Source: Asticcacaulis endophyticus
Lineage (GTDB): Bacteria > Pseudomonadota > Alphaproteobacteria > Caulobacterales > Caulobacteraceae
NCBI RefSeq assembly: GCF_014652575.1
Contig: NZ_BMZB01000008.1
Coordinates: 1-64,000 of the forward strand
Length of the DNA stretch: 64,000 nt
Direction: 5' to 3'
The position numbers and the translations under genes are program-made. Shown one piece after another: positions 10,430-30,574 of the stretch. Each line of letters starts with the position of its first letter. Within the stretch, counting starts at the first letter, position 1. Under the pieces are notes generated by a model. It was not told where the DNA came from and made no database searches. It saw only the letters and a program-made list of their open reading frames with translations.

Positions 10430-11649
10430 CACCAATAGGGCTCCCAAATACGCGTGAGGCGGGTCAGGGCCTCCAGATAAAAGTAATCCCCCCACAGGCA
10501 ATACTCATCGACGCCCATGCCCTTGGGCATATGATAGACGCCGTGTTTGAGCAGGCCTGCGCCGTCATCATTGGAGGTGGCGGCATAATGCCGGATAAGG
10601 TTTTCAACCATGGCCATCGCTGATCCGCGATAGGCCGCACTATCTGTGTCGGACAAGGGCATGGACTTGCCGAGTTCCAGCAGCCCGCAGGCCGCGATGG
10701 CGGCAGCAGATGAGTCACGCTCATGGGGCGGGGCGGTGAACACCAGATCCCAGCAACACACCAGATCGTCTGGCAGGCGGTTCAGGAAATAGTTTGCCAG
10801 ACGTGCTGAGGTTTCAATCAGGGCCGGTTTGCGGAAATAACGATAGACGAGCGGAAAGCCCGCAATGCCCCAGGCCTGACCGCGCGCCCAGCAAGAATCG
10901 TCGGCATAGCCCTGATGGGTGGTGCCGTGGCGTGGCGCGCCGGTCGCGGGGTCCATGTAAAAGGTATGGAAGGTTGAGGCATCAGGCCTGACTATATATT
11001 TCAGCGCCTGCTGGATGTGGCTGTCGGCGGCATTGGCAAAGGTCAGGTCGCCGGTCTGTTCCGTCGCCCAGTACAGCAGCGGCAGGTTCAGATTGCAGTC
11101 GATGATCATGCGTCCGGCTTCTGCGGGATCGGACAGATTGCCCCACGCCTGAATGACTCCGGCCTTGGGCAGATAACGTGTCAGCAGGAGACGGGCGGCT
11201 TCAAGTCCGGCTTCACGGGCAAGGGTTGAGCCGGTCAGCTTGCTGGCTGCGACGCACGACAGCGAATAGAGAAAGCCAAGATCATGGTGATCGACATTGA
11301 CCTGATCAAAAATGCGCGTGTGGAAGCTTTCGACGTGACGTTCCGCTGCCGTGCGGTATTTTTCATCCCCGGAGAGTTCATAGGCCAGCCAGAGTTGGCC
11401 TGTCCAAAAGCCATTGGTCCATTCAGTATTCCCCATGACGCGGTAGACATTGCCCACGGATGAGGGTTCCGGAAACTGATCGCCATAGGCCGCCAAACCC
11501 TTATCAATGCGGGCGAGCGCCGCACTGATCGCTTTGTCCAGGAGGGCTTTGTTTGGGGTGGCCTGAAGGTTACGTCTGAGGAGGGGCTCCCGCGCGGGTG
11601 CCATAGACGCTGCATCGCTCTGCCGGGGCGTGATAAGGTGGGTGGTCAT
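10429..11649 (-). CDS. GH88 unsaturated glucuronyl hydrolase
   Basis: A 406-residue (alpha/alpha)6-barrel hydrolase that releases unsaturated uronic acid from lyase-generated oligosaccharides. GNTEWTNGFWTGQLWLAYE, VDHHDLGFLYSL (Asp123) and MIIDCNLNLPLLYWA (Asp184) match the two catalytic aspartates of the family; TTHQGYADDSCWARGQAWG is the conserved substrate region. No signal peptide is seen, so it should be cytoplasmic, in keeping with the symporter encoded just upstream. Its start overlaps the MFS stop (ATGA). Activity on products of the heparinase-type lyase at 33563 is a reasonable inference. Confidence 0.92.
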   Translation of the reverse strand: MTTHLITPRQSDAASMAPAREPLLRRNLQATPNKALLDKAISAALARIDKGLAAYGDQFPEPSSVGNVYRVMGNTEWTNGFWTGQLWLAYELSGDEKYRTAAERHVESFHTRIFDQVNVDHHDLGFLYSLSCVAASKLTGSTLAREAGLEAARLLLTRYLPKAGVIQAWGNLSDPAEAGRMIIDCNLNLPLLYWATEQTGDLTFANAADSHIQQALKYIVRPDASTFHTFYMDPATGAPRHGTTHQGYADDSCWARGQAWGIAGFPLVYRYFRKPALIETSARLANYFLNRLPDDLVCCWDLVFTAPPHERDSSAAAIAACGLLELGKSMPLSDTDSAAYRGSAMAMVENLIRHYAATSNDDGAGLLKHGVYHMPKGMGVDEYCLWGDYFYLEALTRLTRIWEPYW

Positions 11650-12968
11650 GATTTTACATCGGGAACGGAATTAAGAACGGGGCTTACGACCGGCGCATCG
11701 GGAGAGGCTGTGGTGCTATGTGTCGGGGTATGCTGAGGGTCCGGCGCCAGCGTCCAGATGGAGATTATCCAGCAGATTAATGCGCCAAGGCCAATGATCA
11801 GATAGGTATGCTGAAAACCAAACAGGTCATAAAGGCGGCCAACCGGACTGGAAAGAATCGCCAGCCCCAGACTGTGCCCAAAGCTAACGCCGACCATGTA
11901 AAGTGTCGATGCGAAGCGCGCTTCAAAATGCGCTGCGATATAGCGGAAAATGGATACGGCCAGAATGGGCAGTTCTATAGAGTGCAGCATCTTCATCGCC
12001 GAAATGGCGATCGGGCCTTCGACCAGACCTGAGCCGGTGATGCGAACGATCATTATACCCGCCGCCAGCAACAGGCCGCGTTTGATGCCCGTATAGTTGA
12101 CAATAAACGGCGCTATGAACAGCATCCCGGCTTCGAGGAAGATTTGGGCAAAGTTCAGACGGCCAAACATGACGCGGCCAATCTCTTCGGTTTCAAACTG
12201 CGACGCGTAATAGACCGGAAACTGCTGGTCGAAGACGAGATAAAGATTGGTCACCCCCAGAATAAGTACCATGAACCCCCAGAACTTCGGTAGTTTCAAA
12301 ACCGCAAGCGAGTCTTTCAGGGTAACGCGCGTGGCTGGGGTGGCTTCCTCAGAAACGGTTTCGTTCTTAAACAGGAACAGAACAGAGATCAGGACTATGG
12401 CCAGGGCCGACGCAATCGAGAAATTAATGTGAGGATTGATGTTGAACAGGTTGCCGGAGAAAAATGCAGCACACGCAAAACCCAAGGCACCGAACATACG
12501 CACCCGGCTGTATTCAAAACCGTAGTGCCTGCCCATGCGGTCGACATAGGACTCAAGAGCAAAAGACCCGGCCATGAAGGTCAGCGACAGATAGACACCG
12601 CCCGTAGCCGCGCCGAGTAACAGATTTTGCCGCAAAAGAGGTTCATAAACAAAGTAGAAGAATGGTCCGCAGCATGCGACCAGAACGGCCAGAAACCAAA
12701 GGACGTGTTTCTTGAAACCGATCTTGTCGGAGATAAAACCGTATAGCGGCTGAAACAGCAGGGCCGCGATAAAGTTGGCCCCCAGCACCGTGCCGGTCTG
12801 TTCTCCGGTTAAGGACAGTGTCGATTTCAGCCAGTTGGACAGCAGGGAAATGCTCATGGCCTGCGAGGCGAAATAGGCAAACACGAAGGCGCTAAGCGCT
12901 ATCTGAACTTTCAGCCTGCCGGGACGGTCAAAGGCAGGCGTGCCATTGCCTGATGATACTATAGCCAT
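11646..12968 (-). CDS. MFS oligosaccharide:H+ symporter (LacY-like)
   Basis: A 440-residue transporter with about 12 membrane segments. FASQAMSISLLSNWLKSTL and the loop motif GFISDKIGFKKHVLW (MFS motif A variant) match oligosaccharide-proton symporters. C-terminal FGHSLGLAILSSPVGRLYDL is also typical. It likely moves the oligosaccharide that GH88 then cleaves. I start at the ATG at 12968 (MAIVSSGNG), preceded by AGGGTAG; the frame from a TTG at 13025 adds a non-conserved leader. First gene of a three-gene operon, with a LacI-type operator 114 bp upstream of its start codon. Confidence 0.88.
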   Translation of the reverse strand: MAIVSSGNGTPAFDRPGRLKVQIALSAFVFAYFASQAMSISLLSNWLKSTLSLTGEQTGTVLGANFIAALLFQPLYGFISDKIGFKKHVLWFLAVLVACCGPFFYFVYEPLLRQNLLLGAATGGVYLSLTFMAGSFALESYVDRMGRHYGFEYSRVRMFGALGFACAAFFSGNLFNINPHINFSIASALAIVLISVLFLFKNETVSEEATPATRVTLKDSLAVLKLPKFWGFMVLILGVTNLYLVFDQQFPVYYASQFETEEIGRVMFGRLNFAQIFLEAGMLFIAPFIVNYTGIKRGLLLAAGIMIVRITGSGLVEGPIAISAMKMLHSIELPILAVSIFRYIAAHFEARFASTLYMVGVSFGHSLGLAILSSPVGRLYDLFGFQHTYLIIGLGALICWIISIWTLAPDPQHTPTHSTTASPDAPVVSPVLNSVPDVKS

Positions 12969-13081
12969 GTTTTCTACCCTGTTTCTGTCGCCGTCGTGGG
13001 CTAACGCTGGCGCTTTTTTGAGCAATTGCGTGTTTTGATTTGTATTTCAGATCAAAAACTATCGATCATATGTTATTTTGC

Positions 13082-13095
13082 TGATATCGATATCA
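13082..13095. promoter_or_regulatory. LacI-type operator, copy 1
   Basis: A perfect 14-bp palindrome TGATATCGATATCA between the divergent MFS operon and the beta-lactamase-fusion gene. Eight more copies or near-copies lie upstream of other glycan-utilisation genes. The central CG step and symmetric halves fit LacI-family operators. Confidence 0.8.
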
Positions 13096-15095: not shown

Positions 15096-16550
15096 TTATT
15101 TCGAGATTTCAAATCCCTCAACGTGCGGGCCGATCTTGATATCCCCATCCGTCGGGTTTCGGACCTTGCGTCCGCCGATCGTGAGGTTTTCGATGCGGAC
15201 GCCTTTGACGGCGGTATCGACCGACAGGCCGGAAATGATTGACGCGCTCGGCATACCCTCACCGGTGAAGGTGATATTGCGCAAGGTGACATTTTCCACG
15301 CCGCGTCCCGGCGCTTTGTTATAGCGGGGGCTGTTGCCAGCGACGATATGGATCAGCTTGCCCTCCTCGATACGCTCGACCCTAATGTTGGAAAAGGAGA
15401 TGTCGCGGATGAGGGTGGAATCGCCGGAGAAAATAGCCATAGCCCCTTCCCAGGGCCCGTCATCTTCGTCGAGGTTGAGCACGTCGATATTGTCGAAAGT
15501 GACATTGTGTATGGTGCGCGGGTTTGCATTGTCGCCGAAATGGCCAACATACATAGCGTGGGCAACGTCATTCCAGAACGTCGAGTTCGTCACCTTGATA
15601 TCATAGGTGTCAAAGGATTCTGATGACGGGGCTGTATCGGTCTTGGTCGCACAGATGGGGCAGTCATTAACCGCATAGACGACCACGGCATCGTCTGAGG
15701 TTCTCAGATAGGCCCGATCAACCGCAACATGCTGGGACGTTGAAATGCCGAAACCATCCGACCATTTCCCGGACGTAAAGCCCGTCAGTCCATTGACCTT
15801 CACATTGACGGAGTGCCGAATATTGGAGATGCGCGCGGCAGCTTCTTTGTCATCATTGACGACAATCACATCCTCAATCGTGATGTTTTGGGAGCCATCA
15901 ATCTCAATAGCACGCCCGGAGTTGTAAATCAGGCCGCGTCCCATAATGCGGACATCCTGAACGCCCCTGAGATCAAAATTACCATTCAGGATAGCGCCGC
16001 CCTCGAGATAGATAGTCTCACCGGAGCGCGGACGAAATATTTTCCCGCCATCATCAGGGGCGTGGACGCCCGGCCCATAATAGCTGACATTTTCGCCAGC
16101 GGGTTTTGGCGGCGGCGGTGCGCCCGCCAGAATGTGCAGATTGTGCAGGCGGTCATCGTCGAATTGCAGCGAAAAGCGCTGTGGCCGGTCTAGCGTAAAG
16201 CTGATGATCTTGCCTTTTGTGGTCAGTTTTACGCCGGGCGCACGCGGTAAAACATCAACAGTCTGAAAGCGCCCGTTGTTTTTCTGCACCTCAACTTCGA
16301 CGGTGCCGGTGAAGTCAAAATAGACCATCGACGCGTCCTGGGGTTCGTCCCAATCTACGCGGATATTGTATTCATAAAGATCCTGCCACTCGCCGCCGGG
16401 GGTTCGGACACGCACCGTGTAGGTGTCATTGTGGGCGGCATAGACCATGGGAACCGGCGGCGCTGGGTATGCCCGTAAACTGTCGGCATATGCGTATGGT
16501 GCGGCCACCATAAGGCTAAGGCAGATGACTGAGGCAAAATTCAGTTTCAT
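15096..16550 (-). CDS. Secreted right-handed beta-helix glycosidase (polygalacturonase-like)
   Basis: A 484-residue exported protein with a clear signal peptide (MKLNFASVICLSLMVAAPYA, cut after YADS region). Residues 25-145 look like a beta-sandwich (GTVEVEVQKNNG), then YYGPGVHAPDDGG and a long parallel beta-helix with repeats such as SQNITIEDVIVVN. TSDDAVVVYAV carries the paired Asp expected of GH28/GH49-type glycosidases. The sandwich-plus-helix layout resembles GH49, but GH28 is the more usual label. A paralogue is encoded at 36682-38493. It lies 17 bp downstream of the unknown 795-residue gene and shares its operon; start set by a GGGAG site. Confidence 0.75.
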   Translation of the reverse strand: MKLNFASVICLSLMVAAPYAYADSLRAYPAPPVPMVYAAHNDTYTVRVRTPGGEWQDLYEYNIRVDWDEPQDASMVYFDFTGTVEVEVQKNNGRFQTVDVLPRAPGVKLTTKGKIISFTLDRPQRFSLQFDDDRLHNLHILAGAPPPPKPAGENVSYYGPGVHAPDDGGKIFRPRSGETIYLEGGAILNGNFDLRGVQDVRIMGRGLIYNSGRAIEIDGSQNITIEDVIVVNDDKEAAARISNIRHSVNVKVNGLTGFTSGKWSDGFGISTSQHVAVDRAYLRTSDDAVVVYAVNDCPICATKTDTAPSSESFDTYDIKVTNSTFWNDVAHAMYVGHFGDNANPRTIHNVTFDNIDVLNLDEDDGPWEGAMAIFSGDSTLIRDISFSNIRVERIEEGKLIHIVAGNSPRYNKAPGRGVENVTLRNITFTGEGMPSASIISGLSVDTAVKGVRIENLTIGGRKVRNPTDGDIKIGPHVEGFEISK

Positions 16551-16567: not shown

Positions 16568-18955
16568 TCAGTTCTTACCAAGGTAAATAACGGCGGTTGT
16601 GCCGGGTAATACGGTCAGCGAAGTTCTGTCGGTGGTCACGATGGTGCCGGAGACAAGGTCTTTAACGGGGGCCGTGCGTGCGGGCAGTTTAAGCTCAAAG
16701 CTTTTTTGCGCCGATGCATTGATCGCGACCAGATAAGGCCCGTAGGTCAATTGGTAGTAGTCCGCGCGTCCGGCATAGGGATTGTCTTCGCCCGGTACAT
16801 ATTTTGAACCGTCAGGCAGTTTGGCGACCGGATCTTTTTCACCGGCGGTCCAGACATCCCCATCGTCAGGATATTTAACCGTAAAGCGCGTGCCATTGAT
16901 GTGGGGATTGTTGGGACGGGTATAGAAGAGACCGCTGGGTTCATATTCCTGCCGGTCCAGAACGACGGTGGCCAGCCGGTCGGTTTGCGGGGTGATGTAA
17001 TGCACACGACCGACACCGCTGATGCCATAATTGGCGCGCCAGTACAGTGAGGCATAAAAGATGTCGTCGCCATGTTTCACGGCCACAACGCCATTCTCTT
17101 CGTCGGTAAAGACGAAATCAGGCTCTCCCTTCGACATGGGCAGCTTAAAGGGTTGCGCGGGCAGAGCGGAGAGGGTTTCAAATTCCTCCACGACATCTAT
17201 CAGCCCGATCGTGGCGCGCAGCGTCCTGGCCGTCATCATATGGTCTACGCTGGAGAAAAACTGGTTTTCGGCGATCTGCTGCTGAGCATAGGATATCAGC
17301 AGGGGATCTTGTGTCGCCACGGCCACCTGAAGCGGGGAGGATTCCCACGACGGTTTTTGCCCGTACATGACATCACCGGGGTAATACATGTCGCGCCAGC
17401 CGATGCCGGTTTCCAGTCGCATGGACTTATAGCCCTTCGCATCAGCATGGGGGACGCGGAAATATCCGCGCGCCTGTGCGATTTTCACCAGTTGATCGCG
17501 AATCTTGACATCGCCCGGTTGGCCTTTGGCGGGCCGTGTCGCGTCATAAAGGGCGGCAACCCAATCAAGGACTTCGCCGTATCCGCCGACATAGCCTAGC
17601 TCTTTGGTCAGCCCCTTAGCGGTGGTTTCAAAATAGTTTTTGGGCACGGAAAACTTCGCATCAGCCTCAGAGGCGGCATAGGTGGGTTCACCCTCATCAT
17701 TCAGGCTGCCGGTCCATGGTATCAGGCCGACAGATTCGTAAAAGAACGGCAATAGTTTCGCGCGCGCTTCGGCCTTTGGGCTGCCTATGGCGATCAGGCC
17801 CTCGTTAGTGTTCCAGATGCCATAGAGGTCCTTGATCATGGACTGGTTGGTGTAGAGCCTGCGGTTCTTTTTGTTCCATTCCCGGCTGTAGACGAACATG
17901 GCTTCATAGGCCTTGCGGCGGCTTATGGTTTTGCCGTCAGGCCCGGTGATTAAGACGTCCAGATCCTTTTGGATGAAGGGGCCGGTTATTTTTAGCGCTT
18001 CGCCCAGAAGCCCCAGACCAAACCAGCCGGGATTGGGCGTATTCACGTCATTGATAGCTATGTCGGAATTGGTTTTGAACTGATCATAATAGGTGTCCGC
18101 ACCTTTCAGAATGGCAGTCAGGTGATCGCGGTCATGGTAACCCGTCGTCCATTTCGTCTCAAAGGTTCGGGCCAGAAATGAGATTTCCATTTGATGAGGG
18201 GCGCGCCCCTGAAGCGACAGGGTTTTGGAGATCTGATCGTTAATGCGCGATCTGACCCGGTTCATCACCTCCGCGCCGTTTTCCGGATTAACGGACAATG
18301 GCATGGGTTTGCCGTCATTGCCCGCAAACTCAATCATTTTATCGGAGTGGACGATAAGCGCGTAAAGGCCGCGCGACGGCTCCGTCATGGGCTTTTGAAA
18401 CTTGGCGAGCTCAGCGCCGTAGCGCCAGATCGGGCCGGTCGCGCGCATCTGGCAGTCGATCCGTGATTTGCCCTGAGTGAGTGCTGCGGGCAGGGCATGG
18501 GTGACATAGTGAAAATGCCCCGGCTTTATTTTGCCGTGGGTGCCCTGATCGAGGATATCAATGTCACTGAGCTGGCGATAACCGACCTGTTTGCCATCGC
18601 AATACAGGGTCGTGCGGTTGGTCGAAATATCTGAGCCCCACAGGCGAACGGTCAGGTAATTTTGCTCATTGCCTTTGACCTTAAGGTGAAACGAGGCTGT
18701 GCCGCCGCGCCATTCATCAGTGTTCGCAGGCCCGGCTTTTAGCGGCAGAAGACGCCGCGCAGACTGGCCTAAACCGCCCGCAATGATGTCACTGGTGTCA
18801 GCCGTCAGACCGTGGGCGGCCTCGGATTTCATGTCGCCAAAGACCAGTATGTCGGTGTGGTCTGCGGCCAGAACCGGCAGGGGGGACGCGCCCAGCAACA
18901 AGGTAACGGCTAAGCCTGCGCGGGTCTTTCGCGCCAGTGTGTTTGAAACGGGCAT
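16568..18955 (-). CDS. Large exported protein of unknown family, probable helical-toroid glycan enzyme
   Basis: A 795-residue exported protein I cannot assign. A signal peptide runs through RAGLAVTLLLGASPLPVLA. Residues 25-150 resemble a carbohydrate-binding jelly roll (NYLTVRLWGSDIS). The middle is rich in helices with aromatic/acidic turns (WTTGYHDRDHLTAI, PNPGWFGLGLLGEALKI, GYVGGYGEVLDWVAALYD), as in (alpha/alpha)-toroid lyases and hydrolases. The last 90 residues look like a beta-sandwich. The ATG at 18955 follows GGAGAGG by 9 bases and is preferred to 18973. It is the first gene of an operon with the beta-helix glycosidase, and an operator lies 47 bp upstream. A lyase or glycosidase is likely, but unproven. 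Confidence 0.7.
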   Translation of the reverse strand: MPVSNTLARKTRAGLAVTLLLGASPLPVLAADHTDILVFGDMKSEAAHGLTADTSDIIAGGLGQSARRLLPLKAGPANTDEWRGGTASFHLKVKGNEQNYLTVRLWGSDISTNRTTLYCDGKQVGYRQLSDIDILDQGTHGKIKPGHFHYVTHALPAALTQGKSRIDCQMRATGPIWRYGAELAKFQKPMTEPSRGLYALIVHSDKMIEFAGNDGKPMPLSVNPENGAEVMNRVRSRINDQISKTLSLQGRAPHQMEISFLARTFETKWTTGYHDRDHLTAILKGADTYYDQFKTNSDIAINDVNTPNPGWFGLGLLGEALKITGPFIQKDLDVLITGPDGKTISRRKAYEAMFVYSREWNKKNRRLYTNQSMIKDLYGIWNTNEGLIAIGSPKAEARAKLLPFFYESVGLIPWTGSLNDEGEPTYAASEADAKFSVPKNYFETTAKGLTKELGYVGGYGEVLDWVAALYDATRPAKGQPGDVKIRDQLVKIAQARGYFRVPHADAKGYKSMRLETGIGWRDMYYPGDVMYGQKPSWESSPLQVAVATQDPLLISYAQQQIAENQFFSSVDHMMTARTLRATIGLIDVVEEFETLSALPAQPFKLPMSKGEPDFVFTDEENGVVAVKHGDDIFYASLYWRANYGISGVGRVHYITPQTDRLATVVLDRQEYEPSGLFYTRPNNPHINGTRFTVKYPDDGDVWTAGEKDPVAKLPDGSKYVPGEDNPYAGRADYYQLTYGPYLVAINASAQKSFELKLPARTAPVKDLVSGTIVTTDRTSLTVLPGTTAVIYLGKN

Positions 18956-19001
18956 CTTTTGTTTCCTCTCCATTTACCCCGATGAGGCATGGATGATTTT
19001 C

Positions 19002-19015
19002 TGATATCGATATCA
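19002..19015. promoter_or_regulatory. LacI-type operator, copy 2
   Basis: Perfect TGATATCGATATCA, 47 bp upstream of the 795-residue unknown gene on the minus strand. It shares the divergent intergenic region with copies 3 and 4. Confidence 0.8.
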
Positions 19016-19092: not shown

Positions 19093-19106
19093 TGATATCG
19101 ATAACA
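19093..19106. promoter_or_regulatory. LacI-type operator, copy 3 (one mismatch)
   Basis: TGATATCGATAACA in the 400-bp divergent control region between the minus-strand and plus-strand glycan operons. It is 91 bp from copy 2 and 203 bp from copy 4; multiple sites of this kind allow repression by DNA looping. Confidence 0.65.
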
Positions 19107-19295: not shown

Positions 19296-19309
19296 TGATA
19301 TCGATATCA
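19296..19309. promoter_or_regulatory. LacI-type operator, copy 4
   Basis: Perfect TGATATCGATATCA, about 50 bp upstream of the GTG start of the SUMF1-GH43-GH97-GH43 operon. Its distance to copy 2 is 294 bp, close to a whole number of helical turns. Confidence 0.8.
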
Positions 19310-19358: not shown

Positions 19359-20135
19359 GTGGGTATCAACATGATGGCCATTTGCGCCCGCCTTTCAGGG
19401 GTGGGCGTATCAGTTGCGGGTCTATGCCTTGCGGGGTCTGTGCTCGCGTCGGCGGATGATTTGCCGCACATGGTGCTTGTGCCGGGCGGGGCGTTTGATA
19501 TGGGCTCCAAACCCGCAGAACCGGGCCGGGAGGGCGATGAAGCGCCGCGCCACCGCGTAGTCCTGAAACCCTTTTATGTGTCTCAGCATGAGGTCACCGA
19601 GTCTCAGTGGAACGCCTGCGTGTCGGCGCAAGCGTGCAAGCCTTTGCGGCAGTCATCGGGCCCGCAATATCCGGCATGGGATTTACGCTGGAAGGAAGCC
19701 GAGGCCTATGTAGGGTGGTTGTCTGAAACGACCGGTCTGAAATACCGCTTTCTGACCGAGGCCGAGTGGGAATATGCGGCGCGCGCGGGAACGGATACAC
19801 TTTACCACACGGGCGATACTATCTCACCCGCGCAGGCCAACTATGCGGCGTCGGGTCTGGGGCGGGTCGGGCCGGTCGGGCAATATAAGCCCAATCACTT
19901 CGGGCTTTATGATATGCACGGTAATGTCTGGGAGTGGGTGGCCGACTGTTATCGCGAGTCAGGTTACTATCAGGCCCCGGCGGATGGCCGAGCGGTAGCT
20001 GATCCGGACTGTCACATGCATGTTTTGCGCGGTGGTGCGTTCGATACGCGGCCGGAGCAACTGAGAAGTGCTTATCGGTTCCGCGCTCAATTTGGTGGTC
20101 CCGGTGTGGGCTTGCGCGTCGCACGGGAGCCGTAA
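19359..20135 (+). CDS. Exported SUMF1/formylglycine-enzyme-fold protein
   Basis: A 258-residue protein with a signal peptide (VSVAGLCLAGSVLASADD) and a complete FGE-sulfatase-type fold: MVLVPGGAFDMGSKPAEPG, FYVSQHEVTESQWNACV, YRFLTEAEWEYAARAG, GLYDMHGNVWEWVADCY and LRGGAFDTRPEQLRSAYRFR. The pair of cysteines that binds copper near the C-terminus of true formylglycine-generating enzymes is not present in the final block, and no sulfatase is encoded nearby, so it is probably not a sulfatase activator. GTG start with AGAGG about 10 bases upstream; ATG at 19371 is an alternative. First gene of a four-gene operon. Confidence 0.8.
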   Translation: MGINMMAICARLSGVGVSVAGLCLAGSVLASADDLPHMVLVPGGAFDMGSKPAEPGREGDEAPRHRVVLKPFYVSQHEVTESQWNACVSAQACKPLRQSSGPQYPAWDLRWKEAEAYVGWLSETTGLKYRFLTEAEWEYAARAGTDTLYHTGDTISPAQANYAASGLGRVGPVGQYKPNHFGLYDMHGNVWEWVADCYRESGYYQAPADGRAVADPDCHMHVLRGGAFDTRPEQLRSAYRFRAQFGGPGVGLRVAREP

Positions 20136-20136
20136 G

Positions 20137-21219
20137 ATGAGACTATTATTCCTCTCGGTATTGTGTCTGCTGCTGGCACCGGTCGCCGGGGCTGAGACCG
20201 CTATGCGTTCCGGCACCATTTCGCCGGGAGCGCTCTGGCCGGATGATAAGGGCGTGCATATCAACGCCCATGGCGGCGGCATTTTACAGCATGACGGCGT
20301 CTATTACTGGTTCGGCGAGCACAAGATCGCGGGTGATGCGGGCAACAGAGCCCATGTCGGCGTTCATGTCTACAGTTCGCGCAATCTCATCAACTGGAAG
20401 GACGAAGGCATCGCCTTGTCAGTGGTCGATGATCCGATGAGCGACATTGTGCGCGGATCGGTGATCGAGCGGCCCAAGGTGATCTATAACGCAAAGACCC
20501 GAAAGTTCGTGATGTGGTTCCATCTGGAGCTTAAGGGGCTGGGCTATAAGTCTGCGCGTTCGGCCGTTGCGGTCGCCGATACCGTCACCGGGCCATACCA
20601 CTATGTTAACTCGTTTCGCCCCAACGCCGGTATCTGGCCGCTAAATCTGTCTGAGGCAGATAAAGATCCGGCCCGAACCGTTGTGGCGCGTGACTTTGAG
20701 ACCGGGCAAATGGCCCGCGATATGACCCTGTTTGTCGATGATGATGGTGCGGCCTATCACCTTTATGCCTCCGAAGAAAATCACACCCTTCATATCTCCC
20801 GCCTTACGGATGATTACATGCGGCCTGCCGGAGACTATGCGCGCATGCTGCCCATGGGCAATGATGAGGCCCCGGCCATATTTAAGCATAAGGGCAAATA
20901 TTATCTGATCACGTCCGGCCTGACCGGATGGGCACCGAACCCGGCCAAGTCCTATGTGGCGGATCATATATTCGGCCCGTGGACGGCGCTCGGTAATCCG
21001 GTGCGCGGCACGCTTGAGCAACAGGCCATAACCTTCGGCGGGCAATCGACCTTCGTTCTGCCCTATGGCAATGGCCATATCTTCATGGGCGATATATGGC
21101 GGCCGAAGGATGCCATTGATGGCCGTTACCTGTGGCTGCCGATTGAGTGGGACAAGGATAAACCGGTGATCCGTTGGTACGACACCTGGAATTTGAAAAC
21201 TTTGGAGACGCCGCAATGA
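20137..21219 (+). CDS. GH43 glycosidase, exo-beta-1,3-galactosidase-like
   Basis: A 360-residue secreted five-bladed beta-propeller enzyme with signal peptide MRLLFLSVLCLLLAPVAGAE. It matches the GH43 group that includes galactan 1,3-beta-galactosidases: HINAHGGGILQHDGVYYWFG near the N-terminus, IERPKVIYNAKTRKFVMWFH with Glu111, and ARDMTLFVDDDGAAYHLY with Asp195. It should remove terminal galactose (or arabinose) from side chains. The ATG lies 1 bp after the SUMF1-gene stop; the longer frame from 20068 lies within that gene. Its stop overlaps the GH97 start (ATGA). Confidence 0.85.
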   Translation: MRLLFLSVLCLLLAPVAGAETAMRSGTISPGALWPDDKGVHINAHGGGILQHDGVYYWFGEHKIAGDAGNRAHVGVHVYSSRNLINWKDEGIALSVVDDPMSDIVRGSVIERPKVIYNAKTRKFVMWFHLELKGLGYKSARSAVAVADTVTGPYHYVNSFRPNAGIWPLNLSEADKDPARTVVARDFETGQMARDMTLFVDDDGAAYHLYASEENHTLHISRLTDDYMRPAGDYARMLPMGNDEAPAIFKHKGKYYLITSGLTGWAPNPAKSYVADHIFGPWTALGNPVRGTLEQQAITFGGQSTFVLPYGNGHIFMGDIWRPKDAIDGRYLWLPIEWDKDKPVIRWYDTWNLKTLETPQ

Positions 21220-23174
21220 CCCCGACCCGCCGCCAGATTATGAGCTTAACCGCCGCCGGTGTGGCTTCATTGAACGCGGTCGCGGCAACGGCTCAGACCA
21301 GCGGCCATATGGCTGTGGAATCTCCGGACAAGCGCTTGCAGGTGGTCGTCGATGTGTCGGGGGCCGTGCCGAACTGGAGTGCCCGCTTCGATGGCCGCGA
21401 TATCCTGCTGCCGTCGGATCTGGGCCTATGGCTGGCCGAGGGGCGGTTGCTGGGGGAGGGGGCGCAGTTTATGGGCATGACCCCAAAATCGCACTCCGGG
21501 ACATGGAGCCCAGTGCTCGGGCAATCTAGCGTTTACGACGCGACCTCACAGGAAGTGACGCTTCAGTTCGCCGACCCAAAATCCAGCGCCCGGTTCAATA
21601 TCATCATCCGCGTGTTTAATGGCGCGGCGGCTGTGCGCTATCAATTGGTCAGCTTGCCCAAAGGCAAGCGGTTGCGGTTGATGGGTGAGCGCACTCAGTT
21701 CCGGTTTCCGGACAGCGCGCGGATATATTCCAGCCGCGACGAAGGCGATATCCATGTCTCTGCCCAGAACCGGCTGGCACCGCTGGAGCATCCGGACCTT
21801 ACCATATCATCAGACCGCGGCGCCTATGCTGACCTGCCCCTGACGGTGGATGTCGGCAATGGGACCTTTGCCTATGTGGCCGAATCCGATCGCCTGCATT
21901 ACCCGCGCTGCATGGTAAAGCCCCACGAAAAGGGCGGGCTGGTGACCTATCTCATGCGCTATCCCGGACGGGCGACCGGCTGGGGCGGGGAAGACGATAC
22001 ACCGGAAGAGGCTGAGTTCGATATTGATGTCGGCCAGAAAACGCCGTGGCGTATCCTGCTGGCGGCGGACAGCGCCAAGGGCCTGATTGAACAGCACCGC
22101 ATTGTGCCGACACTGGCCACGGCCAACCAGTTGGGGGATGTGTCCTGGGTCAGACCCGGTCGGGCGTTTCGGATCATGAAGCCTTATTCGACAGAGGCGT
22201 CGCTAAAAGCCGTCGATTTCGCGGATCAGCACAAAATTGAATATGTTCTGTTCGACGCGCATTGGTATGGCGATGGCACGGATGCGTCTGAGCCGACCTA
22301 CCCGATCAAGGCGCTCGATCTGCAACGGGTGATAGATTATGCCAAAACCAAAAAGATTGGCGTCATGCTCTATATCGACCGTGTGGCGGTCACTCGGGCG
22401 CTCGATGCCATGTGCAAGCTCTACCAGAAATGGGGCGTGGCCGGTGTCAAGCTCGGCTTTATGTGGGAAGGTCGCCAGTCGGACGTTGATTTCATCCATA
22501 AGGTGGTGAAAGCCTTTGGCGAGCATAGGATGGTGGTCAACCTGCATGATAATCTGCGGCCCGCGGGTTTAGAGCGCACCTTGCCCAACTATCTGACGCT
22601 GGAAGGGGTTAAGGGCAATGAGCAGTTTCCTGCCGCCCGTCATCATGTCAATCTGGCTTTCACGCGCCCGATTGCCGGGCCGATCGACTACACCATCTGC
22701 TATGCGCAGGAACGCAATCAGACGACCAATGCCCATCAACTGGCGCTGGCGGTGACTTGCTACAGTCCGCTGACCCTGCTCTACTGGTACGATAAGCCCG
22801 AAAAATATGCCGATAAGCCGTGGCCGGAACTGAAATGGTTCGACGACTGCCCGACCACCTGGGATGAGACGCGCGCCATCGCCGGGGAGATCGGTGAATA
22901 TGTCGTCATCGCCCGTCGCAAAGGGGATGTCTGGTATCTGGGGGCCATTACCAATGAGATGGAGCGCCGTCTGGAGATCGACCTGTCATTCTTGGGCGGT
23001 GGAAGCTGGACCGCGACACGCTATATGGATGGTAATCTGAGCCGTCCGGCCTATAAGACAGCAGTGAAAATTGAAACGGTGGAGGTCATGGCCACGTCAC
23101 GCCTGAAGCTGCAACTCAATGCGGCGGGCGGGCAGGCTATCCGTTTCGTACGCACAGGAGCCGGGAAAATCTGA
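21216..23174 (+). CDS. GH97 glycoside hydrolase
   Basis: A 652-residue exported enzyme with a Tat-like leader (TPTRRQIMSLTAAGVASLNA). The N-terminal beta-supersandwich is followed by a TIM barrel and a C-terminal sheet, as in GH97 alpha-glucosidases/alpha-galactosidases. In AGVKLGFMWEGRQSD, Gly414 occupies the place of the nucleophile Asp of retaining members, while VNLHDNLRPAG (Asp445) aligns with the HE motif of inverting members and Glu469 (GVKGNEQ) with the acid. This suggests an inverting mechanism with Asp in place of Glu. The start ATG overlaps the GH43 stop; its own stop overlaps the next start (TGATG). Confidence 0.85.
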   Translation: MTPTRRQIMSLTAAGVASLNAVAATAQTSGHMAVESPDKRLQVVVDVSGAVPNWSARFDGRDILLPSDLGLWLAEGRLLGEGAQFMGMTPKSHSGTWSPVLGQSSVYDATSQEVTLQFADPKSSARFNIIIRVFNGAAAVRYQLVSLPKGKRLRLMGERTQFRFPDSARIYSSRDEGDIHVSAQNRLAPLEHPDLTISSDRGAYADLPLTVDVGNGTFAYVAESDRLHYPRCMVKPHEKGGLVTYLMRYPGRATGWGGEDDTPEEAEFDIDVGQKTPWRILLAADSAKGLIEQHRIVPTLATANQLGDVSWVRPGRAFRIMKPYSTEASLKAVDFADQHKIEYVLFDAHWYGDGTDASEPTYPIKALDLQRVIDYAKTKKIGVMLYIDRVAVTRALDAMCKLYQKWGVAGVKLGFMWEGRQSDVDFIHKVVKAFGEHRMVVNLHDNLRPAGLERTLPNYLTLEGVKGNEQFPAARHHVNLAFTRPIAGPIDYTICYAQERNQTTNAHQLALAVTCYSPLTLLYWYDKPEKYADKPWPELKWFDDCPTTWDETRAIAGEIGEYVVIARRKGDVWYLGAITNEMERRLEIDLSFLGGGSWTATRYMDGNLSRPAYKTAVKIETVEVMATSRLKLQLNAAGGQAIRFVRTGAGKI

Positions 23175-24928
23175 TGAAGGCTATAGTGTCCATATTGCTG
23201 GCGGGACTGTTTCTGCCGGTGGTAGCTCAGGCTGCCGAGCCGCCGCTGGTCGTGCCCGATACCCGCATGCCGTCAGGTGTGTGGATATCGGATCAGGGGG
23301 ACGGCACCTATATTAATCCGGTGCTTCAGGGCGATTATTCTGATCCCGATGTGGTGCGGGTTGAGGATGACTATTACCTGACGGCCTCCAGCTTTACCAA
23401 TGTGCCGGGGCTGCCCATTCTGCACTCCAAAGATCTGGTCAACTGGACTCTGATCGGCCACGCACTGGCGCGCAATGTGCCGGAGGCTCATCATGCCGTG
23501 CCGCGGCGCGGGGGCGGTGTCTGGGCGCCTGCCATTCGCCACCACAATGGCAAGTTTATGATCTATTATCCCGATCCGGATTTCGGGATATTTCTGGTGA
23601 CCGCCGTGGACCCAAAGGGGCCGTGGAGTGCGCCGGTTCTGGTGGATAGTACCAAGGGCGCCATTGATCCGGCCCCCTTCTGGGATACGGATGGTCAGGG
23701 CTATCTCGTGATAGGTTTTGCCGGATCGCGGGCGGGTATTAAAAACATCATTACGCTGAAAAAGCTCAATGCCGACGGCACAAAAACGGTTGATGAGGGT
23801 GTGCGCATTATCGAAGGCGATAAACTGCCCAAGGTTAAAACCTCGCAAGGGCTGATGCCGTGGTTCACCACCGAAGGCCCCAAGCTCTATAAGCGCGGCG
23901 AATGGTATTACATCTTTGCGCCGTCGGGTTCGGTCAAAGGCGGCTGGCAGGGCGTGTTCCGCTCGAAATCAATTTATGGCCCTTATGAGGGGCGAAGCGT
24001 AATCGATCAGGGCAATACCGACATGAACGGCCCGCATCAGGGCGCGTGGGTCGATACGGCCCCAAAAAATGGAAAACCGGGTGAAGACTGGTTCCTGCAT
24101 TTTCAGGACACGGATTCCTATGGCCGCCGCGTTATGCTGCAACCGATGCATTGGCAAAAGGACGGCTGGCCGATCATCGGTGAGCGTCAAAAAGGTCAGG
24201 TCTATGGTCAGCCGGTCTGGCGTCACAAGAAGCCTGCCTTGCCCTCGCAGCCAATCGCCCGCAACCCGGTGGATGATGATTTTGACAATGGCTATCACCT
24301 CGGCTGGCAATGGAGTTCTAATCCCGGCGACGACTGGGTTGACCAGTCGGTCAAAGGCGCGCTGCGCCTTAAATCCGTATCGTCACCGGTCAATCTGTGG
24401 GAAGCGGGCAATCTGCTGACCCAGAAACTGCCGGGCATGGGTTTCAGTGCGGCGACAAAGTTGACATTAACGCCCAATCTGGCCGGGGAACGTGCGGGTT
24501 TGCTGGTTCTGGGTTATGATTACGGCTGGATCGGGCTGGAAAATACCGCAGATGGTGTCAAGCTGGTGCAGGTCACACGACCGCGCGCCAATGCCGGAGG
24601 CAGCGAGACGGTTCTGACGGCACCGGTGCGTGTTGACGGGCCGGTCTGGGTGCGCGCCCGGTTTGAGCCGGTAACGGTCGCAGACCCTGTGCCGCAGTTT
24701 CCCCATTACTGGCCGTCAATGTTGCGCTCGACCCACGCCAGGGTGGCGTTCAGCTACAGTCTGGACGGGGTGAGTTTCACGCCGGTAGGGACGGGCATGA
24801 TGACGCAGCCGGGGCGATGGGTCGGCACGCAGATAGGCTTGTTTGCGCAGGCCGCGTCAGGTACACCGGCGTTTGTGGCCACCCGTGTCGGCTATGCGCA
24901 GTTCGATAATTTCAGCGTGGTGCCTTGA
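23174..24928 (+). CDS. GH43 beta-xylosidase/alpha-L-arabinofuranosidase-type enzyme
   Basis: A 584-residue secreted enzyme: signal peptide MKAIVSILLAGLFLPVVAQA, GH43 propeller at about 45-355 and a C-terminal beta-sandwich at 365-584 as in two-domain GH43 xylosidases. The catalytic triad is visible: base Asp57 (DYSDPDVV), modulator Asp165 (AIDPAPFW) and acid Glu234 (FTTEGPKLY). It probably cleaves arabinose, xylose or galactose residues from side chains released by other enzymes of the locus. It is the last gene of the operon; the next gene starts 167 bp downstream, behind two inverted repeats. Confidence 0.9.
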   Translation: MKAIVSILLAGLFLPVVAQAAEPPLVVPDTRMPSGVWISDQGDGTYINPVLQGDYSDPDVVRVEDDYYLTASSFTNVPGLPILHSKDLVNWTLIGHALARNVPEAHHAVPRRGGGVWAPAIRHHNGKFMIYYPDPDFGIFLVTAVDPKGPWSAPVLVDSTKGAIDPAPFWDTDGQGYLVIGFAGSRAGIKNIITLKKLNADGTKTVDEGVRIIEGDKLPKVKTSQGLMPWFTTEGPKLYKRGEWYYIFAPSGSVKGGWQGVFRSKSIYGPYEGRSVIDQGNTDMNGPHQGAWVDTAPKNGKPGEDWFLHFQDTDSYGRRVMLQPMHWQKDGWPIIGERQKGQVYGQPVWRHKKPALPSQPIARNPVDDDFDNGYHLGWQWSSNPGDDWVDQSVKGALRLKSVSSPVNLWEAGNLLTQKLPGMGFSAATKLTLTPNLAGERAGLLVLGYDYGWIGLENTADGVKLVQVTRPRANAGGSETVLTAPVRVDGPVWVRARFEPVTVADPVPQFPHYWPSMLRSTHARVAFSYSLDGVSFTPVGTGMMTQPGRWVGTQIGLFAQAASGTPAFVATRVGYAQFDNFSVVP

Positions 24929-25095: not shown

Positions 25096-26148
25096 ATGAA
25101 ACGTCAGCGTATGAGCGATCAGGGCGGCACGGTAACGATTCACGATGTGGCCAGACATGCAGGTGTCTCGTCCATGACCGTGTCACGCGTCATTAATAAA
25201 AACGTCAATGTGCGTGAGCCTTTGCGTGAAAAGGTCATGGCCTCGATCAAGGCCCTGAAATACACCATGAACATGGCCGCGAGGTCGACACGCGCCGGCA
25301 TGGGCGGGGTTCGGATCGGCGTGTTATATTCTCACCCGTCGGCGTCCTATCTGAATGAGGTCATGCTGGGGGGGCTGGATCAGGCGGCGCGTCTGGGGGC
25401 GCAACTGTTGCTGGAAAAATGCGGCGGGTTGCAGTCGCAGAAAAACGCCGTCAACCGGCTGGTTGAAGCCGGGGTTGATGGGGTGATTCTGCCGCCGCCT
25501 TTGTGTGATTCCGCACCCACCGTGCAGATGCTGACCCGTGTGGGCATCCCTGTGCTGGCGTTGGCGACGGCGCGCCCCTTGCCGGAAGTCTCGGCTGTGC
25601 GTATCGACGACTTTCAGGGGGCTCTGGCCCTGACCCGACATTTGACCAAGCTGGGGCATAAGCGTATCGGGTTTATCAAAGGCAACCCGACCCACACGCC
25701 GACCGAAGTTCGTTATGAAGGCTTCCTCAAAGGGCTGTCGGAGGCGGGCATTACGCTGGACGAGGGGCTGGTGGTGCAGGGGCAGTTTACCTATAAATCC
25801 GGGCTCGAAGCCGGACGGGAGCTTCTGGATCGGAAAGACCCGCCCACCGCTATATTTGCCTCCAATGACGATATGGCTGCCGGTGTCATGGCGGTCGCGC
25901 ACGGGCTAAAGATCTCAATCCCTGAGCAACTGAGTGTATGCGGGTTTGACGATACGCCGGTCGCCTCGACCATCTGGCCGCAACTGACCACGGTTCATCA
26001 GCCGATCGTGGCTATGGGGCGCAGTTCGGTCAGTACAATTTTCGAGCGGATCAAAGAGCTGAAATCGGGCGAACCGTCTAGGCCCGTCCATCAACTGATG
26101 AAATTCACCCTGATGGATCGCGATTCAACGGGGCCTGCGCCGAAATAA
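25096..26148 (+). CDS. LacI-family transcriptional regulator
   Basis: A 350-residue DNA-binding repressor. Residues 13-60 hold the HTH and hinge (TIHDVARHAGVSSMTVSRVI), followed by a periplasmic-binding-protein-like sugar sensor with GVDGVILPPPL, KLGHKRIGFIKGNP and AIFASNDDMAAGVMA. The ATG follows AGGGAT. It sits between the SUMF1-GH43-GH97-GH43 operon and the esterase/TBDR genes, and is the only LacI protein in the window, so it is the likely reader of the nine palindromes. Its effector is probably an oligosaccharide or sugar from the locus. No palindrome of that type lies immediately before its own start. Confidence 0.92.
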   Translation: MKRQRMSDQGGTVTIHDVARHAGVSSMTVSRVINKNVNVREPLREKVMASIKALKYTMNMAARSTRAGMGGVRIGVLYSHPSASYLNEVMLGGLDQAARLGAQLLLEKCGGLQSQKNAVNRLVEAGVDGVILPPPLCDSAPTVQMLTRVGIPVLALATARPLPEVSAVRIDDFQGALALTRHLTKLGHKRIGFIKGNPTHTPTEVRYEGFLKGLSEAGITLDEGLVVQGQFTYKSGLEAGRELLDRKDPPTAIFASNDDMAAGVMAVAHGLKISIPEQLSVCGFDDTPVASTIWPQLTTVHQPIVAMGRSSVSTIFERIKELKSGEPSRPVHQLMKFTLMDRDSTGPAPK

Positions 26149-27236: not shown

Positions 27237-27331
27237 AATTAGGGTTGGCGGCAAAGTTGTCGGGCGCTGCATAGGGATATGTACAGGCCAATATAATGAC
27301 GACATGCACGTTAAGCGCCGGAGGAAACAAA

Positions 27332-30265
27332 ATGAAAAGATACACACGGATGCGCGCGTGCGTGTCGGGGGCAGCTATGCTGTTTGCCATGAGCGTGACT
27401 GCTGCGGCTAACGCACAGGAGACGGCATCTGCGGAAGATGTCGATACAACCACGGTGGTGGTCACCGGTATTCGCGCCTCGGCGCGCTCCTCGCTTTCGA
27501 TCAAGAAGAATACGCTTGAGGTCGTTGATTCCATTACGGCCGAAGATATCGGCAAATTGCCTGACACCAATGTGTCGGAAACCCTGACGCGCATTCCCGG
27601 TGTTCAGGGCTACCGGTACGGCGGTGAAGGGGCGTCCCCTGCGGGCTCAGGCTCCGGGGTCACTATTCGCGGCCTGTCGGGGCAGACAGCCTCTCAGCTC
27701 AATAGCCGGGTATTTTTCACCGCCGGGACGCGTGAGTTCAACGTCGAAAGCGCTATTCCGGGCATGGTTGCGGGCATCGATGTTTATAAGAACCCGTCGG
27801 CGGAGCATATCGAAGGCGGTATTGGTGGCCTTGTAAATATCCGCACACGTAACCCCAGTGATTTTAAGGGGCCAACCGTGTCTTTGGGGGCTACGGCGCG
27901 CTATAATGACCTGATCAAAAAGGCTGATCCTGAAATTTTCGGTCTGGTTGCCAACCGTTGGGATCTGGCCAATGGTGGCCGCATCGGCGTGATGGCGGCG
28001 GGGACTTTTAGCGAAAGCAGTGGGCGTTCTGATAATAATCCGGCCAATGGCGGGGCAAACTTCAAGCGCGCGATCCGTGCGGATGATGCTGAATATGCCG
28101 TTGCGGCGGGCGCTAATCAGGCCTATGCCGGGCGAACGGATACGTGGTTTCTGGCCAGTGTGCCGAGCACGGCCAATGTCCCGAATGCCAATCTGACATC
28201 CTTTACAGGCGCGCCCCTGACCAGTGCGCAGCAGGACAATATTATGGTCGCGCCTGCGCTGACCAATAACCTGTTCCAGGAAAGCATTTTCCGTACCCGC
28301 AAAGGGTTGAGCCTTGCCAGTGACTACCGGGTAAATGACAGTCTGCGCTTTTATGCCGAGTATAATTATAACTACTATCTGTACCATCAAAACTATCGCG
28401 GCCTGAATGCCGTTGACGGCGGTACAGTTCAAAATCTGACGACGACGCCGTTCGACTATACCGAAGGGCTGGCCAACCGTAACAGCAATGGCGGCTCAGA
28501 TGACGTGGTCGTCGATCAGCGACTGGCAGGGGCGACCTTCCTCAATTCGACCCTGAATACAGTCGGTGGCGATGAGCATCACGAATACGATACGGCCTCT
28601 CTGGCCGGGGGTGTGGAATGGAAGCCGACGTCCCAGTTGGAGTTCAAAGCCGACCTGATGTATCTTGAAACCACGCGCTCTCAGGATAATCGCTCAGTCA
28701 ATATGGACTCGGCGCCGGGTCTCGTCTGGAATATTGAGCGCACCACCACGGGTGAGCCGCATACCTTTGATATCTCCGGCCCAAGACTGGATGATGCGGC
28801 CAACTGGATTTTCCGCGACTATAATAATGGTGCCAACCAGAAGTGGGACGATAGTGCCTGGGCGGCGGCCTTTTCCGGCAAATATATGCCCGAAGCCGGA
28901 CCGTTCTCCGCCGTCAAGTTCGGCGTTCGCTTTGCGCATCAGCAGGATGATTACCGCACCTACAATTTTTCCGGCCGACGCCTGACAACCGATGGTGGTT
29001 TGCGCACGAGCGCCAACATGATTTTCGGGTCGTCAATGGCGGATCTTCTGGTCAATGCGCCCCGCAACTTCATGCGCGATGAGACGGGCTATTCCGGCGG
29101 GTTCCTGGTGTTCGATTCCGACGCCCTGTTAGGCGATAATGTCCGCAACCGTTTCCCAAATGCCGGGATTGCGGCAGAGGCCTCATTACCTGAAGTAACC
29201 GCGAACCGTCGCTATAGCGAAGAAGACACCACCGCCGCCTTCCTTATGGGTGAGTTTACCTTCCTTGACGACCGGCTTAAGGGCAATGTCGGTGTACGCT
29301 GGGTGAAGACGGAGGGCTTCTTCCGCTCCGGTGCCGGGGCTTCTGCCATTGAGGCGTCGTCTTCCTATAAGAACACCCTGCCGTCGTTGAACGTGACCTA
29401 TGATCTGACGGGCGACAATGATCTGTTGCTGCGATTTGGCTATGGCCGGGGCCTGACCCGTCCTGATCTGGGTCAGCTTAACCCGACCCTGTCCTATAGC
29501 GAATCCTTGGGGACGGGCAGTGCTGGCAATCCCGACCTGAAGCCGCAGGTGGCCGACAGTTATGACCTGTCGCTGGAAAAATACTTCTCCAGCACCAACT
29601 ATGTGTCCGCAGCCGTATTCCGTAAGGAAATCGACAGCTTCTTCTTTGGTATCGCCGGCTGTGAAACCATAGCCGGGGCACCGGCACCCAGTGGTGTTGT
29701 GACGCCAACAGGGTGTGCCTCGCCGCAATATCTGGTGACGCGCACGGTCAATGCCGAGCCGGGCTGGGTCGAAGGGGTGGAACTATCGGGGCAATATTTC
29801 TTTGATGCTCTGCCGGGTATCTGGAGCCATTTCGGCGTTTCCGGGTCTTACACCTTCGTCGATACCGCCTTGCCGGTGAACTTCGGTACGGCCACGGCAC
29901 CACGTTTTGTCATCATGCCTCAGCCGATGCAGTCAAAGCATAATTACAGCCTGACCGGCATGTATGAGGATGAGAAATTCTCGGCCCGTCTGGTCTATAC
30001 CTACCGTTCGGATGCCATTCTGTTTGGAGCGTCGATCAACCCGATCGATGGCCGCTATATCCGTGAGTATGGGATTCTCGATCTGGCGCTCAACTATAAT
30101 CTGACAGAGCGGGTGGCGGTGAGCTTTAATGCCATGAACCTGACCGATCAGGCGCTTAACCGGAATGTGGGTGAGCCCTTCGGTTATGAAACCAACATTG
30201 AGCGTCAGCATTTTGCCAATGGTCGCAACTTCTCGCTGGGGGTGCGCTATAAGTTCGGCGGGTAG
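27332..30265 (+). CDS. TonB-dependent outer-membrane receptor (glycan uptake)
   Basis: A 977-residue TBDR. Signal peptide in CVSGAAMLFAMSVTAAANAQ, TonB box TTVVVTGIRAS, plug domain with SITAEDIGKLPDTNVSETL and VTIRGLSG, then a long 22-strand-type barrel ending FSLGVRYKFGG. This is the proteobacterial TBDR group often linked to carbohydrates. The ATG at 27332 follows GGAGGAAACAAA; the frame from 27296 lacks a ribosome site. It is downstream of two LacI-type operators and followed by a terminator, so it is likely transcribed alone. Ligand is presumably the target oligosaccharide. Confidence 0.92.
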   Translation: MKRYTRMRACVSGAAMLFAMSVTAAANAQETASAEDVDTTTVVVTGIRASARSSLSIKKNTLEVVDSITAEDIGKLPDTNVSETLTRIPGVQGYRYGGEGASPAGSGSGVTIRGLSGQTASQLNSRVFFTAGTREFNVESAIPGMVAGIDVYKNPSAEHIEGGIGGLVNIRTRNPSDFKGPTVSLGATARYNDLIKKADPEIFGLVANRWDLANGGRIGVMAAGTFSESSGRSDNNPANGGANFKRAIRADDAEYAVAAGANQAYAGRTDTWFLASVPSTANVPNANLTSFTGAPLTSAQQDNIMVAPALTNNLFQESIFRTRKGLSLASDYRVNDSLRFYAEYNYNYYLYHQNYRGLNAVDGGTVQNLTTTPFDYTEGLANRNSNGGSDDVVVDQRLAGATFLNSTLNTVGGDEHHEYDTASLAGGVEWKPTSQLEFKADLMYLETTRSQDNRSVNMDSAPGLVWNIERTTTGEPHTFDISGPRLDDAANWIFRDYNNGANQKWDDSAWAAAFSGKYMPEAGPFSAVKFGVRFAHQQDDYRTYNFSGRRLTTDGGLRTSANMIFGSSMADLLVNAPRNFMRDETGYSGGFLVFDSDALLGDNVRNRFPNAGIAAEASLPEVTANRRYSEEDTTAAFLMGEFTFLDDRLKGNVGVRWVKTEGFFRSGAGASAIEASSSYKNTLPSLNVTYDLTGDNDLLLRFGYGRGLTRPDLGQLNPTLSYSESLGTGSAGNPDLKPQVADSYDLSLEKYFSSTNYVSAAVFRKEIDSFFFGIAGCETIAGAPAPSGVVTPTGCASPQYLVTRTVNAEPGWVEGVELSGQYFFDALPGIWSHFGVSGSYTFVDTALPVNFGTATAPRFVIMPQPMQSKHNYSLTGMYEDEKFSARLVYTYRSDAILFGASINPIDGRYIREYGILDLALNYNLTERVAVSFNAMNLTDQALNRNVGEPFGYETNIERQHFANGRNFSLGVRYKFGG

Positions 30266-30497: not shown

Positions 30498-30574
30498 TTT
30501 ATGGTGGTCTCTAAGGGGTGGCGGTCAGGCAATTAAAACAACAGGCCGGGTTACAGAGCCGGCGGGAGAAACAG

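Follow-up and report, generated by a model that had tools for sequence, protein, structure and literature searches.

Gene organization and operators at the locus

The gene under study lies on the minus strand of the window, the whole 64,000-nucleotide stretch of Asticcacaulis endophyticus DNA analysed here, where an open reading frame of 795 codons plus stop reads from 18955 down to 16568 and, judged from the frame and its relatives, encodes an exported putative lyase. An AGAGGA ribosome-binding site is situated about 8 nt 5' of its ATG, and an alternative in-frame ATG at 18973 would extend the protein to 801 amino acids. Residues 1-31 (18863..18955, minus strand) read as a Sec signal peptide with a basic start, a hydrophobic core and the ending PVLA/AD, in agreement with the exported protein of 795 residues that a sequence-only reading had proposed without giving a strand. 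The same reading had made it the first gene of an operon with a beta-helix glycosidase, and the second position of this two-gene unit is indeed taken by a GH28 gene (15096..16550, minus strand; Pfam E 6e-11) located downstream on the same strand after a 17-bp gap. The GH28 protein had 0 matches in PDB sequences. It is one of two divergent GH28-like proteins, the other at 36685-38124, in a locus that otherwise resembles one for arabinogalactan use.

Motif scanning located a perfect operator palindrome, TGATATCGATATCA, at 19002..19015, 47 bp upstream of the target start codon as had been noted before. A second copy with 1 mismatch lies at 19093..19106, and another perfect copy at 19296..19309 precedes a divergent unit of FGE-sulfatase-type, GH43, GH97 and GH43 genes. 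With <=3 mismatches allowed, 15 operator matches were obtained in the window against 1.9 expected from shuffling. All 3 perfect copies of the 3.95-Mb genome fall inside the window, as do 8 of the 11 genomic sites with <=1 mismatch, and such concentration fits a local regulon of the LacI-family protein encoded at 25096..26148 (plus strand). Based on its location, this protein is the likely reader of the operator and probably controls transcription of the target. Orthologues in 4 other Asticcacaulis loci and in Sphingobium also have an operator with 0 or 1 mismatch upstream.

The minus strand further carries a GH88 unsaturated glucuronyl hydrolase (10432..11649; PDB 2zzr, E 3e-113) and a LacY-type sugar symporter (11646..13025) with an operator at 13082 upstream. 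On the plus strand are a GH43_24-type exo-beta-1,3-galactanase (20068..21219; PDB 6eug, E 7e-110, and 7bys, a galactan 1,3-beta-galactosidase, E 5e-55), a GH97 of alpha-galactosidase type (21174..23174; PDB 5e1q, E 5e-72) and a GH43 of arabinofuranosidase/xylosidase type with GH43_C2 (23174..24928), as well as two TonB-dependent receptors (27296..30265 and 30518..33460) and a heparinase II/III-type lyase (33563..35959) sharing its regulon with the target. This heparinase-type protein is a distant relative of PL15, PL12 and PL21 structures (best E about 1e-8) and is kept in 6 Asticcacaulis genomes as well as in Sphingobium.

A beta-lactamase-type domain fused to an alpha/beta hydrolase (13190-15079), with a 51% counterpart in the Sphingobium locus, is possibly a pathway esterase. 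An FGE-sulfatase-type protein (19359-20135) is encoded ahead of the GH43_24 gene and adjoins it in other Asticcacaulis loci; it was not seen in the Sphingobium locus, and no sulfatase was present among the scanned window genes. In several Asticcacaulis loci a 2OG-Fe(II) oxygenase (PF13759; 35975-36637) is linked to both the TonB receptor and the lyase, and in Sphingobium it is linked to the TonB receptor.

Relatives and domain organization

Neither the target protein alone nor two family profiles gave a match in Pfam, NCBIfam or PDB sequences, and the earlier remark that no family could be named therefore holds against these three collections. None of 7 family members (0/7) matched Pfam Lyase_8_N or Lyase_8 at E<=10, and, with the same cut-off, PDB held no chain related to the profiles of 7 and 9 members; the weak PDB matches 9e5c, 7rmy, 7y5e and 6kcr were judged to be chance. 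No description of the family was found in the literature on PL27, on Halocatena lyases or on Asticcacaulis arabinogalactan.

Full-length relatives were recovered from Asticcacaulis (74-98% identity), Sphingobium (42%) and the archaeon Halocatena (20-27%), so the protein that had merely looked conserved is conserved from Alphaproteobacteria to Archaea. The family is present in 5 of 25 Asticcacaulis genomes with the source genome counted, while a search through genomes of Alphaproteobacteria (289) and Pseudomonadota (398) yielded no additional full-length relative, indicating that the family is rare there. Scans of viral contigs for further relatives found none. The Sphingobium relative is carried on a 1.25-Mb plasmid, and those of Halocatena marina (about 25% identity) are likewise located on plasmids, with three paralogues (P0003, P0005 and P0006) in one cluster. 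Halocatena relatives possess a twin-arginine-like signal at the N-terminus, and paralogues at L011 14731-18015 and 19608-23276 are 1094 and 1222 aa in length with extra C-terminal parts, both unnamed in the record.

The sequence-only reading had assigned a jelly roll, a helical toroid and a C-terminal sandwich in this order. AlphaFold modelling of the full protein reached a pLDDT of only 35 from an alignment of 5 near-identical sequences, and the model was not used for fold search; its secondary structure nevertheless follows the proposed order, with beta strands at residues 35-203, helices at 228-600 and strands at 614-792. The order thus agrees with a low-confidence prediction that falls short of proving it. 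The N-terminal beta module (residues 35-203; 18347..18853, minus strand) modelled alone reached a pLDDT of 53, and searching with it gave weak jelly-roll or sugar-binding matches only (TM about 0.3), which were not relied on. In a whole-genome search, the family profile matched, with E 2e-4, the C-terminal module of GH127 proteins, known in Pfam as DUF6805. Profile positions 47-188 align with GH127 C-termini, and direct Pfam DUF6805 matches were absent from the family members. This DUF6805-like match speaks for the N-terminal jelly roll. The module is followed by the helical part (residues 228-600; 17156..18274, minus strand), for which a toroid is proposed from profile comparison given that fold prediction failed, and by a C-terminal beta part (residues 606-795; 16571..17140, minus strand) with strands predicted at low confidence.

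Similarity of the helical part to PL8 toroids

The helical region of 9 family sequences was compared by hhalign with a profile of 7 collected PL8 proteins, with no motif supplied. Global alignment to the PL8 toroid gave an E value of 4e-5, a probability of 67% and a score of 27.1, as opposed to scores of 1.9-3.7 against the GH88, GH127 (3.1) and heparinase-type profiles; these three families themselves scored 2.6-4.4 against PL8. The comparison showed no relation of the target to heparinase-type lyases, GH88 or GH127, and kinship with them was rejected. When the profile was shuffled in 10-column blocks, 0 of 200 shuffles reached the real global score, and 2 of 200 did so with 25-column blocks, which retain real homologous pieces. 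Local alignment to PL8 gave a probability of 25%, and its score was matched by 12 of 200 25-column shuffles. Since the local scores are weaker and coarse shuffles reach them, we regard the PL8 link of the helical part as well evidenced, short of proof.

Residue positions point in the same direction. The 9-sequence alignment, with identities down to 20%, contains 17 invariant residues in the helical part, including N370, Q371, E452, Y459, G460 and R521, and D287 is invariant as well. N370 (17846..17848), Y459 (17579..17581) and R521 (17393..17395), all on the minus strand, align respectively with the catalytic Asn, the catalytic Tyr and the Arg of PL8, represented by N236, Y295 and R349 of the PL8 protein L061. 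In chondroitin AC lyase the catalytic residues are Asn183, His233 and Tyr242 (PMC12088678), and the His and Tyr of L061 show the same spacing from its Asn (50 and 59 residues). Where PL8 enzymes have their catalytic His, 9 residues ahead of the Tyr, the target has T450, which is not conserved in its family, and no other invariant His was found in the helical part of the 9-sequence alignment. The Asn/Tyr/Arg mapping was unchanged by leaving out each of the 7 PL8 sequences in turn. Using the Asticcacaulis/Sphingobium half alone, or P0005 and P0006 alone, Tyr and Arg still mapped at zero offset. The Asn is more dependent on sampling, being unaligned with the Asticcacaulis/Sphingobium subset and mapping, among the subsets tested, only with P0005 and P0006 present; small family subsets also lose the global PL8 score.

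The target thus shares with PL8 (Lyase_8_N toroid; hyaluronate, chondroitin AC and xanthan lyases) the helical profile, the Asn/Tyr/Arg set, a YxGxYG motif and export, but differs in giving no Lyase_8_N or Lyase_8 match, in having T450 in place of the catalytic His, in the added N-terminal DUF6805-like module and in the shortness of its C-terminal beta part (only about 190 aa). Judged by Pfam matches and by the His, it falls outside PL8; its mode of action is probably that of a PL8 enzyme. Of the two options given earlier, a polysaccharide lyase or a toroid glycosidase, the former is favoured by the similarity to the PL8 toroid and the latter is less favoured with no similarity to GH88 or GH127. 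That the target is a lyase is probable; that it is specifically a secreted beta-elimination enzyme with an (alpha/alpha)-toroid, a distant PL8 relative having lost the catalytic His, is also rather likely.

In such an enzyme, the exported protein would bind a glucuronate-bearing side chain, with N370 (and Q371 adjacent) binding and neutralizing the uronate carboxylate and R521 holding or orienting the substrate sugar. Y459 would abstract the C5 proton and then protonate the leaving O4, leaving a 4,5-unsaturated glucuronate end to be removed by the co-regulated GH88. With the PL8 His missing, the Tyr may serve as both base and acid, a role that the chemistry permits for syn elimination on glucuronate.

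Substrate clues and alternative readings

The enzyme set of the locus resembles the Bacteroides systems for using arabinogalactan or gum arabic, which pair a Rha-GlcA lyase with GH105 and GH43_24 (PMC8406133; PMC8377490). By this analogy, the target may act on the glucuronate of acidic arabinogalactan or gum and perhaps removes rhamnose caps; we propose the Rha-GlcA cap as the exact substrate only tentatively. The GH88 gene tracks the target closely: in Asticcacaulis it occurs in the same 5 of 25 genomes as the target family plus one, on the Sphingobium plasmid it lies 4.6 kb from the target relative, and on each Halocatena plasmid the sole GH88-like gene is 1.8 kb or 7.7 kb from the nearest relative, with no heparinase-type homologue found on these plasmids. 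However, Asticcacaulis G023 contains GH88 and the heparinase-type lyase with the target gene absent, indicating that GH88 can have another supplier. The proposal that the target is the only supplier of the GH88 substrate was accordingly weakened, both by G023 and by the heparinase-type lyase.

Two target-bearing loci, those of Sphingobium and A. solisilvae G002, lack GH43_24, and arabinogalactan is therefore not proven as the substrate. This lack would suit a lyase acting on another uronate polymer, such as glucuronan or an ulvan-like or gellan-like sulfated or rhamnosylated glucuronan, to which the arabinogalactan genes would be a later neighbour. In favour of this reading, the core common across genera consists of GH88, LacY-type symporter, LacI, GH43, GH97, TonB receptors and heparinase-type lyase, and the Halocatena cluster holds many sulfatases together with GH172 and a fucosidase. 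By contrast, the GH97 of alpha-galactosidase type and the GH43 of arabinofuranosidase type stay with the target, as fits gum or arabinogalactan side chains, and we consider a different polymer somewhat unlikely.

With the same action, the target could be a diverged member of PL27, a Bacteroides family of L-rhamnose-alpha-1,4-D-glucuronate lyases, or of some other lyase family in CAZy that lacks a Pfam model; 44 PL families were counted in 2025 (PMC12088678), some of them without such models. In PL27 enzymes an (alpha/alpha)6 barrel comes after the N-terminal beta-sandwich, and rhamnose is freed from gum arabic (PMC8377490); both properties fit the architecture and the locus of the target. As described, PL27 (BT0263, BACCELL_00875) resembles the target in this order of beta-sandwich and alpha/alpha barrel, in expected substrate and in being partnered by GH43_24 and an unsaturated glucuronyl hydrolase, whereas the target carries a beta part of about 190 residues at its C-terminus and showed no sequence relation to any PDB chain. 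PL27 has solved structures, and the failure of both family profiles to find a related chain is evidence against membership that is indirect for PL27. Assignment to a known family of this kind is thus judged unlikely.

A toroid glycoside hydrolase of a new family, for instance a glucuronidase, rhamnosidase or galactosidase, could work through E452, D287 or other invariant acids. Many GH families combine jelly roll, toroid and sandwich, the N-terminal module is common to the target and GH127, and the neighbours of the target are mostly hydrolases. On the other side, PL8 stands out in the profile comparison with no similarity to the two GH toroid families compared, and the invariant residues agree in order and spacing with Asn, Tyr and Arg of PL8, which makes a hydrolase improbable. 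A non-catalytic secreted sugar-binding protein, to which the DUF6805-like module and the missing PL8 catalytic residue could be ascribed, is very improbable given that the remaining residues at catalytic positions vary in none of the bacterial and archaeal sequences, a constancy that pure binding would not need.

PL42 and GH145 rhamnose-glucuronate lyases possibly share its reaction and locus type but are beta-propellers with BNR_4 (PF15892), whereas the target has no Pfam match and, in the low-confidence model, helices in its middle. GH127 proteins with a C-terminal DUF6805 share the accessory module, but their catalytic part is unrelated to the target by profile and the target has no Pfam match to it. 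Heparinase II/III-type lyases (PL12/PL21 and allies) are alike in the expected general kind of fold, in beta-elimination and, for the one at 33563, in regulon, but the target shows neither a Hepar_II_III_C Pfam match nor profile similarity.

Returning to the proposed His-less PL8-like lyase, the suggestion that this gene was the best candidate for a new carbohydrate-active family survives, as a candidate judged on Pfam, NCBIfam and PDB sequences. Whether it founds a new polysaccharide lyase family of Alphaproteobacteria and haloarchaea, with a PL8-like toroid eliminating at glucuronate without the PL8 His and a fused DUF6805-like sugar-binding module, we hold at slightly under an even chance. 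Such a family would be one more among the toroid lyases, would provide a natural His-less PL8 site as a test of which residue takes the proton and a candidate tool to trim acidic plant gums, and would allow a lyase function to be predicted for at least four proteins of salt-loving archaea that are so far unnamed "hypothetical proteins".

Three further features were seen in the related loci. A DUF2264 protein adjoins the target orthologue in A. solisilvae (L009 12577-14037), where the GH28 partner is missing; no paper on DUF2264 as a glucuronidase was found. On the Sphingobium V4 plasmid (L060 2525-6310), frame breaks that may be sequencing errors interrupt both the GH28 and the heparinase-type lyase. 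Finally, a broken GH88 copy lies beside a Halocatena relative (L012 7657-8084), annotated as two small hypothetical proteins.
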